A DNA stretch of 25,542 nt from a virus: IMG/VR virus record IMGVR_UViG_3300048030_000132, positions 1-25,542 of that record; one strand, 5' to 3'. The notes beneath the pieces were generated by a model that was given only the letters and a program-made list of their open reading frames with translations, was not told the origin of the DNA and searched no databases. Shown in pieces: positions 15,762 through 24,415 of the stretch. The number at the start of each line of letters is the position of its first letter. Within the stretch, counting starts at the first letter, position 1. The translations under genes and the position numbers were made by a program.

Positions 15762-16038
15762 AGCAATAATTGTTTTTTCAATTAATCCTAGTAATATAGG
15801 ACGCATTGTTAACGTATCAGAATACATTGGCAAGTTTGAGCAAAACGAACAGTTCGAAGCATTTGGTATGAAGTGTCATTGTGCTGTTCACGATCATTAC
15901 TGGTGGATTGAAGGTGACGACATTGATATACAACTTGGACCAAGTCCTAAAGCATATATTGCTGACAGTTGGTTGCGAAAAATACCAACTACTAAAAAGA
16001 GCAAAAAACTACAAAAAGAACTTGACATTCTAGCATAA
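15739..16038 (+). CDS. Conserved-type phage/bacterial hypothetical, 99 aa
   Basis: ATG 15739 lies within the preceding gene. The protein starts with a strand-rich block (GDKAIIVFSINPSNIGRIVN) and contains C-H-C...HDHYWWIEGDDIDIQL at residues 46-67, then GPSPKAYIADSWLRKIP. The HYWWIE-x-DDIDIQLGP-x-P-x-AYI-x-D-x-WL pattern is familiar from small proteins in phages and bacteria with no assigned role. The last codons contain the -35 box of the tmRNA promoter (16022-16027). Confidence 0.76.
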   Translation: MNVNKGDKAIIVFSINPSNIGRIVNVSEYIGKFEQNEQFEAFGMKCHCAVHDHYWWIEGDDIDIQLGPSPKAYIADSWLRKIPTTKKSKKLQKELDILA

Positions 16039-16052
16039 GAGTGTTATAAATA
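16022..16052 (+). promoter_or_regulatory. Dual promoter for the tmRNA: sigma70 type overlapping a T4 late consensus
   Basis: TTGACA (16022-16027), 17-base spacer, TATAAA (16045-16050). The same bases 16045-16052 read TATAAATA, the exact T4 late promoter. The -35 box lies within the last codons of the upstream gene. Start of transcription near 16057-16059. This would keep the RNA made both early and late. Confidence 0.75.
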
Positions 16053-16057
16053 TACTC

Positions 16058-16343
16058 GTAACGTTGAAGCAATTCAAACGCTATACAGGACCCGGGGGCG
16101 GTACCCGGCGACTCCACCAAAAATACATTCTGCTTACTGTATAGCAGAAGCAACAGGCTGATAAACTGGGAATGTATTTTTGATGGGGTCGAAATAGGAT
16201 CGACTGGTAGTTAATAGGAGAGTGGAGTTGCCCGGATGTAAGCTCGGTTAACGCGAACAAACTTAATAATTGCAAACGCAAATTATTCATTAGCGGCTTA
16301 GGCTGTTACGAGGTAGTTAGGCCTTGTTACCAAACATAGCATT
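16058..16343 (+). ncRNA. ssrA: Circularly permuted (two-piece) tmRNA, alphaproteobacterial type
   Basis: tmRNA rescues stalled ribosomes and adds a degradation tag. Here the acceptor piece comes first and ends at 16119 in CGACTCC-A-CCA. Its T-stem CCGGG/CCCGG (16092-16096, 16104-16108) closes a GGCGGTA loop. The coding piece begins at 16185 with GGGGTCG, which pairs with CGACTCC. The third pair is the G-U that alanyl-tRNA synthetase needs. D-domain GGATCGACTGG follows, and helix P2 can form between 16204-16210 and 16081-16088 with one bulged A. The tag frame runs 16272-16301: GCA AAC GCA AAT TAT TCA TTA GCG GCT TAG, giving ANANYSLAA with the usual LAA end. The exact 5' and 3' ends are estimates. 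The rest of 16039-16495 is promoter, terminator and the next leader. Confidence 0.92.
16119..16181 (+). repeat. Hairpin of the tmRNA intervening segment
   Basis: AAAAATACATTC (16119-16130) and GAATGTATTTTT (16170-16181) are a perfect 12-bp inverted repeat that brings the acceptor 3' end and the coding-piece 5' end together in the precursor. An inner CTGCT/AGCAG pair (16130-16134, 16143-16147) may compete or extend. The segment is expected to be cut out during maturation. Confidence 0.75.
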
Positions 16344-16377
16344 AAAGAGTGTTGTTTTTTAGCAACACTCTTTTTTT
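16344..16377 (+). terminator. Intrinsic terminator after the tmRNA
   Basis: An 11-bp perfect stem AAAGAGTGTTG / CAACACTCTTT with an 8-base loop and seven T residues (16371-16377). It closes the tmRNA unit. Confidence 0.9.
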
Positions 16378-16495: not shown

Positions 16496-17296
16496 ATGCG
16501 TATTCTCGCGACAGCATTTGTGGCCGCAATGGCCGCAACAACAGCAATGGCTGATACACTAATAGTTAGTGAAGCACCTGCGCCAATCCTAAGTGGTGAA
16601 GTTTCTTTAGACTTCGCTGAAAAGGCAAACGAAAACTATGGCGGCACAATGGGTGTCGAACTAGATATCAATGCAGGAGAAATTGCAACTGTTGATTTAG
16701 GTTTTAAAGCAACAGACGGCAATGCTCTAACATTAGACACATGGACAGTAGGTACAGAAGTTAATGGTTTAGGTCTTGCATTTGGTGATGACAATGGCGT
16801 TATGCCAGAAGCTGAAAAGTCAGCATATAGCACACTAGCAACACCGGCAATGACTGAATCATTAGCACTATCTATAGGCGATGCAACAGTTGCAATCGGA
16901 CTAACTGATTGGACCGCAGATGTGTCTGATCTAAGCAACGTACAAGGTGCATATAGTTTTAATATGAATATGATAGATGTTACTGCTATGCTAGACTATA
17001 ATTTAGATTCAGAAAATACTGTACTAGGTGCAGAAGTTGAAGGTTTAGATTTAGGTATGGTTGCACTTGGTGGCGTAATGACATATGACACTGATGCAGA
17101 ATCAATTGGCTACGAAGGTAATGCAAATGTTAACGGTATTACAGCGTATGTCAACGGTGACGATGCAAATAAACTACAGCATGTAGGTGCTGAAGTTGAA
17201 AGAACATTTGCCGAAGCTACATGGACAGCTGGCGTCAACTATGATACTGATGCAGAAGAATTTGCACCAACAGCCGGTGTAAGTTTTAACTTCTAA
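16496..17296 (+). CDS. Secreted outer-membrane beta-barrel (porin-like) protein, 266 aa
   Basis: Begins with a clear Sec signal peptide (MRILATAFVAAMAATTAMA, cleavage expected before DT). The mature part is acidic, has no Cys, and shows many alternating-residue strands separated by short turns (TMGVELDINAGEIATVDLGF, LGLAFGDDNG, ATWTAGVNYDTD). It ends in GVSFNF; a terminal Phe preceded by alternating hydrophobics is the outer-membrane insertion signal used by the BAM machinery. AAAGGAAA lies 7-8 bases before ATG 16496. The gene stands alone between two terminators (16344 and 17315). A phage-made porin-like protein could change surface permeability or mask a receptor; this role is inference. 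The exact family is not recognised. Confidence 0.75.
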   Translation: MRILATAFVAAMAATTAMADTLIVSEAPAPILSGEVSLDFAEKANENYGGTMGVELDINAGEIATVDLGFKATDGNALTLDTWTVGTEVNGLGLAFGDDNGVMPEAEKSAYSTLATPAMTESLALSIGDATVAIGLTDWTADVSDLSNVQGAYSFNMNMIDVTAMLDYNLDSENTVLGAEVEGLDLGMVALGGVMTYDTDAESIGYEGNANVNGITAYVNGDDANKLQHVGAEVERTFAEATWTAGVNYDTDAEEFAPTAGVSFNF

Positions 17297-23263: not shown

Positions 23264-24415
23264 ATGCGTATTGAAGAAGATATGAAACTTGACTACAAGG
23301 ATGTTCTTATTCGTCCTAAGCGAAGCACACTAGGTAGTCGTAAGGAAGTAGATCTTGAACGTGGATTTACATTTCGTAATTACAAACCAGAGTTTCCAGA
23401 TAACGCAGTATACAGACACTATCGTGGTGTTCCTATTATGGCTTCTAATATGGATGGTGTCGGCACATTTGAAATGGCTGATACACTTGCTAAACAAAAG
23501 ATTATGACTTGTTTAGTTAAGACATATGCAGTAAATGAGTTAGTTAATTTTTTCGATAGTGTGATGCACGAGCGTACAGAATATGTTGCAATGAGCATTG
23601 GTATTACAGATGCAGATCATCTAAAGTTTAGAAATGTATACGAACAAACAGGCAATCAATTGAAGTATGTTTGTATTGATGTAGCAAATGGTTATTCCGA
23701 GAGATTTGCTACGTTTGTAAAAGAATTTAGAAACCAGTATCCTAACATCGTTATTATTGCAGGTAATGTAGTTACTGGTGAAATGACAGAGGAGTTAATT
23801 CTAAGTGGAGCAGATATTGTTAAAGTTGGTATTGGCCCTGGGAGTGTTTGCACTACTCGTATCCAAACTGGCGTTGGTTACCCTCAGCTTTCTGCTGTTA
23901 TCGAATGTGCAGACGCCGCTCACGGCCTTGGCGGTCACGTTATCGCTGATGGTGGCTGTACTTGTCCTGGTGATGTGGCTAAAGCATTTGCTGGAGGTGC
24001 TGATTTCGTTATGCTAGGAGGCATGCTTGCTGGGCACGATGAAGGCGGTGGCGAAGTAATCACTAGACATTATGTAACAAATGAAATAGAATATGAAGTT
24101 GGCAATCATTTAGATAATCGCAAACAAAAAGTAGAAGAAAAAAAGTTTGTACAGTTCTACGGAATGTCAAGTGAAAGCGCAAATGACAAGCACTTTGGTG
24201 GCTTGAAGGAGTATAGAAGCAGTGAAGGAAGAACGGTTCTTGTGCCTTACAGAGGCTCAGTGGAAACCACTACTCAAAATATATTGGGTGGTGTGCGTAG
24301 TACTTGTACTTATGCTGGCGCAGTGCGATTGAAACACCTAATGAGATGTGCAACATTTGTACGTTGTACACAAACTCACAATGGCGTTTATGAAAAATCA
24401 ACAATAGGTAACTGA
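23264..24415 (+). CDS. guaC: GMP reductase
   Basis: Converts GMP to IMP and ammonia with NADPH. TIM-barrel protein of the IMPDH/GMPR family; motifs: [13 protein letters not shown] near the N terminus, [33 protein letters not shown] with catalytic C196, [20 protein letters not shown], and [20 protein letters not shown]. The run [13 protein letters not shown] and the absence of CBS domains favour GMPR over IMPDH. 383 aa against about 346 in E. coli, the extra length being a variable insert after AGHDEGGGE and at the end. ATG 23264 is used; 23282 also possible (MKLDYKDV). Bases 23830-24055 use C- and G-ending codons more than the rest. It overlaps the next gene by one codon (TGATG). Confidence 0.93.

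Follow-up and report, generated by a model that had tools for sequence, protein, structure and literature searches.

The question raised by this locus is whether a viral DNA encodes a genuine permuted two-piece tmRNA and, if so, what such an RNA would do for a phage. The window, by which we mean the whole stretch analysed, is a complete IMG/VR record of 25,542 bases, and the original prediction placed a permuted two-piece tmRNA at 16058-16343. The Rfam covariance check that it had named was significant, as both permuted-tmRNA models exceeded their curated cut-offs on the plus strand in a cmscan of the window: RF04321 (tmRNA_permuted) at 16058-16301 with 102.9 bits (cut-off 47, E 2.4e-19) and RF01849 (alpha_tmRNA) at 16018-16374 with 98.6 bits (cut-off 50, E 4.3e-26). 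The predicted layout was likewise borne out. The acceptor piece lies 5′ of the coding piece with an encoded CCA and a spacer between them; by sequence reading, the former ends with CGACTCC-A-CCA at 16119 and the latter starts with GGGGTCG at 16185. The two strands form a 7-bp acceptor stem with the U-G third pair of alanine identity, and the T-arm, P2 and the tag ANANYSLAA were found at the positions given for them. The RNA is thus the alphaproteobacterial type of permuted tmRNA, in a phage record.

The acceptor piece (16058-16119, plus strand) comprises the P2 5′ strand, the T-arm, the acceptor 3′ strand CGACTCC, an A and the encoded CCA, as supported by RF04321, RF01849 and covariation. It is followed by an intervening segment (ITS) of 65 nt (16120-16184, plus strand), which is expected to be removed during maturation. 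The coding piece (16185-16343, plus strand) contains the acceptor 5′ strand GGGGTCG, the P2 3′ strand, the tag frame and a compact 3′ domain, and its putative 3′ limit at 16343 is placed by the start of the terminator at 16344. The tag frame (16272-16301, plus strand; GCA AAC GCA AAT TAT TCA TTA GCG GCT TAG) encodes ANANYSLAA and a stop, and the type-A 3′ domain GCTGTTACGAGGTAGTTAGGCCTTGTTACCAAACATAGC (16302-16340, plus strand) stands where alpha-type tmRNAs have a domain containing ..CAACAGA... The match to the Rfam consensus is poor over the 3′ half of the coding piece. Host alpha_tmRNA scores range from 219.7 to 312.6 bits among the matches listed (weaker hosts exist), and the window score lies well below these because its 3′ part differs. 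Compared with 200 shuffles, the fold of the 286-nt region is better by 3.3 sd, and that of the segment 16264-16343 gave no clear signal (z -1.9). The window tmRNA was missed by ARAGORN, which carries little weight because this program recovers 13 of 26 clade loci tried; this rate also suggests that ARAGORN-based counts of phage tmRNAs are too low.

Direct reading of the upstream sequence gave a sigma70-like promoter (16022-16052, plus strand) consisting of TTGACA (16022-16027), 17 nt and TATAAATA (16045-16052), whose -10 is a T4-type late motif too. The consensus promoter scan skipped this promoter because it demands T as the sixth -10 base. TTGAC-N17-19-TATAAATA is similarly placed in 99 of 117 listed clade rows and was absent from every search pattern; among the 18 rows lacking it, one is too short and several have an ordinary -10 (TATAAT, TATAAC). 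This places the expected transcription start near 16058, where the acceptor piece begins, and we infer that the tmRNA has its 5′ end there as well. An intrinsic terminator, a 13-bp hairpin (16344-16373) followed by a T-run, occupies 16344-16377 on the plus strand. TATAAAT is used as a T4-type late motif by the authors of the methylophage Melnitz study, according to the part of their text available (PMC9004378). From its position and clade conservation, the tmRNA promoter may be used both early and late. As a marker of many late promoters in the window, TATAAATA was rejected, for the window has a single copy where shuffles predict 2.86, and this copy is that of the tmRNA promoter.

The surroundings of the tmRNA provided several separate observations. 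Directly 3′ of the terminator, a 266-aa protein is encoded on the plus strand at 16496-17296; its N-terminus is signal-peptide-like in our reading, it has no match in Pfam or PHROG, and it may be a small outer-membrane protein. Further downstream (23264-24415, plus strand) lies a gene of purine metabolism whose 383-aa product falls in the IMPDH/GMP reductase family (PF00478, E 3.9e-67; PHROG 'dehydrogenase'). Among the relatives, L274 has a glutamine riboswitch (RF01739, 2150-2198) about 120-170 nt upstream of a clade tmRNA with a nested ORF, and tRNA genes lie near or flank the phage tmRNA in L305 (5547-5643 and 6165-6238) and L367 (2504-3288). Glutamine riboswitches are linked with tmRNA in Melnitz and Mosig, according to the accessible text (PMC9004378).

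The surprise expressed at finding a permuted tmRNA in a phage was unwarranted, as phage two-piece tmRNAs had already been published (PMC9004378). In the portion of that paper available, 53 of 133 unique phage tmRNA structures are two-piece and 50 of these 53 are marine or aquatic, and an available extract of the tmRNA database counts 79 phage sequences of all forms. Permuted tmRNA is present in HTVC008M, Melnitz, phages of Ruegeria and Rhodobacter and others, and at least 119 viral contig stretches fit the alpha-type permuted pattern with a 50-80 nt spacer. The window tmRNA is therefore an added member of a known group, with a variant tag and 3′ domain. The phage had also been called T4-like and lytic, and the window alone establishes neither. 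Gp23 and the T4 portal were found neither in the 25.5-kb window, which is too short to prove such an identity, nor in the 61-kb record of L120, which has an identical tmRNA. Both proteins are encoded in the clade records G238 (204 kb) and G239 (116 kb), with Melnitz as positive control, and G246 has Gp23. Overall, of 16 records tried, 4 gave Gp23 and 3 the portal, and records as long as 236 kb were negative, although fragments can lack genes; a search of 22 fragments run with no positive control found no Gp23. These marker genes show T4-likeness for two clade records and Melnitz; for the window and the clade as a whole they do not show it.

The conservation of the RNA was assessed in an alignment of 52 phage sequences including the window, taken from 62 listed and all with spacers of at most 90 nt, in which 24 pairs of the acceptor stem, the T-stem and two parts of P2 were scored. 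Standard pairing was found in 97.1% of cells and fell to 28-47% when the partners were slid. Cells in which both partners had changed numbered 164, as compared with 53 in shuffles, and none of 500 shuffles reached this value. The third acceptor pair is U-G in 52/52 sequences, and the T-stem and P2 are kept by compensatory change; one P2 pair (columns 31/196) is standard in just 29 of the 52. On the evidence of this alignment, the window tmRNA is a maintained tmRNA. Within the sample it is closest to other virus contigs, and the best bacterial sequence compared is 83.5% identical to it.

The wider comparison used 117 clade rows, namely the listed loci that match the coding-piece pattern and could be parsed, plus the window; 20 further listed rows were left out as they have no CTCCACCA within 700 nt. 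Apart from the window, 81 loci came from one scan and 35 from two other scans; short and middle spacer lengths are over-represented in the clade rows because one source scan was limited to 50-80 nt spacers. Some rows are identical (the window, L046, L090 and L120). By regular expression, the 3′ domain is type A in 35 rows, type B in 74 and undecided in 8, and the type-A consensus, with 2 mismatches allowed, was found in 0 of 289 alphaproteobacterial genomes by a pattern search run with no positive control. The 65-nt ITS of the window is identical in L057, where it is combined with the tag ANANRAPEMAMAA and with the alternative 3′ domain; an ITS of 67 nt is paired with three different tags (L049, L051 and L060), and one 205-nt ITS goes with the tag ANDNYAPEMALAA in L305 and with ANANYSLAA in L364. 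Conversely, L311 has a core 96% identical to that of the window and the same tag, with a different, ORF-bearing ITS of 150 nt. As identical ITS recur with differing tags or 3′ domains, these sequences tell us that ITS, tag and 3′ domain are swapped separately, in a cassette-like manner, across the clade.

What would this RNA do? Our main reading, to which we assign a probability of roughly 0.87, is that the window encodes a functional, phage-owned, alpha-type permuted two-piece tmRNA that would serve ribosome rescue and degradation tagging during infection. It draws directly on sequence, structure, covariation, the promoter, the tag frame and the lack of SmpB in the phage records searched. We infer that the RNA is expressed, processed and charged and that it acts in rescue and degradation. 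Upon folding of the transcript, the CCA and GGGG ends would meet on an acceptor stem closed by the ITS, and the ITS would be cut out by host tRNA-processing enzymes. Ribosomes that stall during infection would then be rescued by the two paired pieces together with AlaRS, EF-Tu and SmpB of the host; A-ANANYSLAA would be added to the chain, and its LAA end would lead the product to host Clp proteases. The enzymes of this scheme belong to established knowledge of tmRNA. SmpB was found in 0 of 33 phage records, many of them fragments, as compared with 10 of 14 control genomes, and the phage tmRNA therefore probably borrows the SmpB of its host; the same count rejected the idea that these phages are seen to bring their own. 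The suggestion that the phage tmRNA replaces the host ssrA found no support, since the alpha tmRNA model matches 184 of 192 alphaproteobacterial genomes (182 above the cut-off) and the phage records searched lack SmpB.

The other role suggested for the RNA was redirected tagging, from a tag considered short and atypical. The description holds against bacteria, where none of the 112 listed tags has 9 aa or fewer, and fails among the relatives of the window, where such tags are common. Bacterial and general viral tags had to start with Ala-Asn and end with Ala, while clade tags had to follow one of nine five-base motifs; the general viral set contains a few misreads (L051, L077 and L086), which the clade rule reads correctly. 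A complete tag was lacking in 7 of 119 bacterial and 15 of 117 clade rows, and six of the latter 15, when re-examined, end AA. All 102 tags read from the 117 listed clade rows end AA, 90 of them [LVMI]AA, and they vary from 9 to 31 aa with bodies that differ as intact in-frame units. Among the 112 listed bacterial tags, 110 end AA and 51 have LAA or another xAA end with L third from the end, LAA being the commonest end. ANANYSLAA accounts for 18 of the 102 listed clade tags, a count that takes in the window and three contigs whose tmRNA is identical to that of the window, and was read by ARAGORN in the relatives L276 and L311. Relatives of the 9-aa tag also include unusually long ones, of 31 aa (AKATINNGEFTFVNFGALNDFAVNEDFALAA and variants) in L285, L287, L323, L332, L290, L369, L337 and L368, and of 29 aa (ANDNVSNVFSFVDFGSLKNYVNEDYALAA) in L273 and L349.

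The N-terminal part of a tag docks the SspB adaptor, and short tags would suit direct recognition by ClpX. A phage tag that lost ANDN could re-route proteins toward slower degradation, another protease or stabilisation, and the difference in composition agrees with this: ANDN begins 111 of 112 bacterial and 37 of 102 clade tags, and 9-aa tags make up none of the former and 30 of the latter, among the matches listed and with differing reading rules. However, the window tag retains the C-terminal LAA that is also the commonest bacterial end, and its shortness still suits ClpX acting directly, so that we regard re-routing as doubtful. Ordinary proteolysis of tagged chains is favoured because LAA is kept and all the clade tags read end AA; ANANYSLAA probably still directs degradation, and in our view it is a degradation tag of the usual kind from which the N-terminal motif has been lost. 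Adaptor-dependent delivery of the tagged chains may be changed, because the tag is shorter than the 112 bacterial tags and lacks the near-invariant ANDN.

In the window, the closing helix of the ITS, AAAATACATTC/GAATGTATTTT, has 13 bp, counting the last base of CCA, and the segment 16115-16192 folds with -24 kcal/mol (z -4.6). No ORF fills the window ITS in three frames, and a peptide encoded by this 65-nt spacer was rejected on that ground. It is a recurring hairpin type, TGCT..TATAGCA..AAGCAACAG.CTGATAAACTGGGAATG, which is also present, with different tags, in L049, L051, L060, L064, L320 and L350; such an ORF-less hairpin ITS may be an RNA cassette of its own.

The 117 listed clade rows hold 80 distinct ITS, 26 of which are at least 100 nt; 23 of these came from one scan and three (L245, L253 and L254) from another, and neither search pattern touches the ITS. 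An ORF led by a Shine-Dalgarno sequence covers at least 75% of the ITS in 20 of the 26 long ITS among the matches listed, as compared with 0.26 expected from dinucleotide shuffles. The nested ORFs begin 8-23 nt 3′ of CCA. Their stop is a TGA at the ITS end in 13 cases (TGAT immediately before GGGG, in one case TGA) and lies 12-15 nt before GGGG in four, and three ORFs (L253, L276 and L325) run past the ITS end. The proteins with a stop inside the ITS have 31-77 aa, some with membrane-span-like stretches or CxxC pairs, and by our reading the 20 ITS represent 11 unrelated protein families, whose members are not independent within families; additional families came from scans biased to such families. 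Permuted tmRNA was confirmed by Rfam in 10 of 10 ORF-bearing loci tested. PHROGs and Pfam, each searched with 10 nested proteins, assigned no function and no homing domain (LAGLIDADG/HNH/GIY-YIG), the weak Pfam matches (NUMOD1, E 0.02; RicinB_lectin_2, 0.022; Tox-REase-9, 0.037; GCV_H, 0.081) all falling below cut-offs.

Family A (MEIIWH..., 11 distinct sequences) gave a dN/dS of 0.22, with members from a scan biased to AAGGA after CCA included, and families C and D gave 0.10 and 0.07 from one pair each, all by simple Nei-Gojobori counts on short ORFs; family B shows almost no variation. These values of 0.07-0.22 indicate, at the sequence level, purifying selection on the nested ORFs of the three testable families. 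In family A the variable columns fall 23, 11 and 36 of 62 by codon position, and each of the 11 distinct sequences has a nested frame of 186 nt, behind a leader whose length, counted from CCA, ranges between 12 and 15 nt. The protein also exists outside the spacer. Melnitz gene 85 (QZI94817.1, 45780-45980), which is 69% identical to the first aligned member, is a free-standing annotated CDS directly upstream of the tmRNA annotated from 45984. Searching the phage collection by tblastn, we found family A relatives in four Melnitz records; the 112-aa nested protein of L416 has a free-standing counterpart in Pelagibacter phage HTVC010P (42.9% identity), and four other nested proteins had no relatives there. 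For viral contigs, the best 80 of 153 family A loci were analysed: 21 are nested in an ITS, 29 have a tmRNA coding start 316-813 nt 3′ of the ORF start, one has a tmRNA elsewhere, three have CCA upstream only, and 26 have none, some of which the regular expression may have missed.

Outside the clade rows, no ORF-filled ITS was found in the 52 bacterial tmRNAs parsed of 55 loci (29 best matches, 20 picked as long and six others), whose ITS span 10-232 nt with three of at least 100 nt. Nor did the ITS (14-111 nt) of any of nine other phage records parsed reach 75% filling (RcXuper, DSS3P8, MD18, MAL1, Cp1R7A-A1, RcRudolph, RcSimone-Hastad, V10 and an unverified fecal clone; Phosso and HTVC008M were left out).

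Could the nested ORFs be chance frames or passenger fragments that are not translated? Six of the 26 long ITS are not ORF-filled by the strict test, and L296, L297, L328 and L357 are not by the relaxed one; no stop precedes GGGG in L253, L276, L325 and Melnitz, whose 142-nt ITS has a Shine-Dalgarno sequence and a 41-codon frame beginning MFKWLSKT. In addition, the Shine-Dalgarno is buried in five complete modelled precursors, and MD18 has a 22-codon TTG frame to the ITS end that covers about 71% of its ITS and is missing from the near-identical MAL1. Against these points stand the excess over shuffles among the matches listed, the dN/dS values of three families, the constant frame of family A behind its varying leader, the free-standing annotated CDS in Melnitz and the lack of comparable filling in the other phage records and bacterial tmRNAs parsed, which together make untranslated frames improbable. 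The putative clade-wide gene slot in the ITS is what looks new in this analysis; the evidence for it is strong at the level of sequence, and as an ORF it is absent from the window. We found no description of protein genes in the intervening segment of a permuted tmRNA in the open-licence literature, and the word 'intervening' is absent from the Melnitz paper (PMC9004378).

How translation of a nested ORF could coexist with tmRNA maturation is suggested by the closing helix. Among the 79 distinct listed ITS of at least 20 nt, 63 are closed by a helix of 8 bp or longer (median 12), as compared with 1% of shuffled ITS. AAGGA after CCA sits in this helix, with its partner at the ORF end. AAGGA adjoins CCA in 14 distinct ITS from 7 families, and an ORF fills each of these, versus 10 of the 65 ITS that lack it. 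The Fisher value of 1.6e-9 overstates the association, since related ITS within a family are not independent observations. Some of the 10 are probably chance frames; L294, L243/L256 and L064 have frames of this kind, which the strict 20/26 leaves out. In five modelled precursors, the unpaired probability of the Shine-Dalgarno was 0.001-0.003 in the complete RNA versus 0.46-0.65 before the 3′ arm is made.

We tentatively propose, at somewhat less than even odds, that the clade ITS is a gene slot in which one transcript would act as a message while nascent and then as a tmRNA, the window carrying the version with an ORF-less hairpin. In the nascent RNA, the Shine-Dalgarno just 3′ of CCA would be free and the small protein could be made; transcription of the 3′ arm would then let the closing helix hide the Shine-Dalgarno and present the acceptor stem for processing. 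After excision, the ITS would amount to a minimal mRNA that ends with its stop codon or a single base later, or that has no stop at all (Melnitz, L253, L276 and L325). Because the stop lies so close to the end, trimming could yield a non-stop message, a substrate of its own tmRNA, and hence a feedback. If this is true, the discarded spacer of a stable-RNA precursor would be a carrier of protein genes whose start and stop are folded into the maturation helix. The proposal makes testable predictions, namely nascent-only translation, roles for the small proteins and feedback through trans-translation, and Melnitz is a cultured phage suited to testing them.

Two further explanations concern the window RNA as a whole. 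It could be a decoy that resembles tmRNA, captures host SmpB and prevents trans-translation, the role suggested for the stub tmRNA of mycobacteriophage DS6A; in the available portions of the sources, DS6A carries little beyond the tRNA-like domain of tmRNA and such a molecule inhibits the tmRNA of the cell (PMC11915505, PMC4131195). The drift of clade tags from ANDN, which 37 of 102 listed keep, would agree with a decoy, but the mRNA-like half is kept in this clade, and every one of the 102 tags read ends AA with an intact in-frame body of 9 to 31 aa, which renders a decoy very improbable. Least credible of all is a functionless host ssrA acquired through imprecise excision of a temperate phage, an origin of the kind raised by the Melnitz authors in the text available, ssrA being an integration site for genomic islands and prophages (PMC9004378), since the gene is complete with its own promoter (as in 99 of 117 listed clade rows) and terminator, its stems covary across 52 sequences with a tag frame conserved clade-wide, which refutes a mere passenger, and its nearest sequences in the sample are virus contigs, the best bacterial one being 83.5% identical. 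A functional phage tmRNA remains our preferred reading, and the window alone adds a phage permuted tmRNA with an unusually short tag.

Compared with the alphaproteobacterial permuted tmRNA of the Caulobacter type, the window RNA shares the gene order, the third-pair G-U, the T-arm, P2, the tag frame and the CCA, and differs in being phage-borne, in its 9-aa tag without ANDN, in its compact 3′ domain and in its lower model score. Methylophage Melnitz (MZ577097, gene 86) and pelagiphage HTVC008M, which are classed as Kyanoviridae, have a permuted tmRNA too. Melnitz has the same TTGACA-17-TATAAATA promoter as the window, whereas the tags of the two phages, ANDNYVPVDYALAA and ANFNEYALAA, are unlike that of the window, as is the stop-less open frame in the 142-nt ITS of Melnitz. 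The phages V10, DSS3P8, MAL1, RcXuper, MD18 and Cp1R7A-A1 of Ruegeria, Rhodobacter, Phaeobacter and Mesorhizobium share the alpha-type gene order and tag; their ITS are 93-111 nt, none 75% ORF-filled, and the regular expression found no TTGAC-TATAAATA in them. For the proposed feedback, E. coli arfA offers a parallel in its possible link between a non-stop message and trans-translation, according to the available text (PMC10107115), an analogy that applies only to those ITS in which the stop coincides with the predicted 3′ end or would fall past it. Genes for homing endonucleases carried by group I introns of tmRNA genes, and a tRNA gene in one permuted ITS, are likewise nested in an excised part, as described in the accessible portion of the source (PMC11915505). 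Unlike the intron genes, the nested proteins scanned from the clade gave no homing domain in PHROGs or above the Pfam cut-off; their slot is the own spacer of the permuted gene, and the start and stop signals of their ORFs lie in the closing helix.
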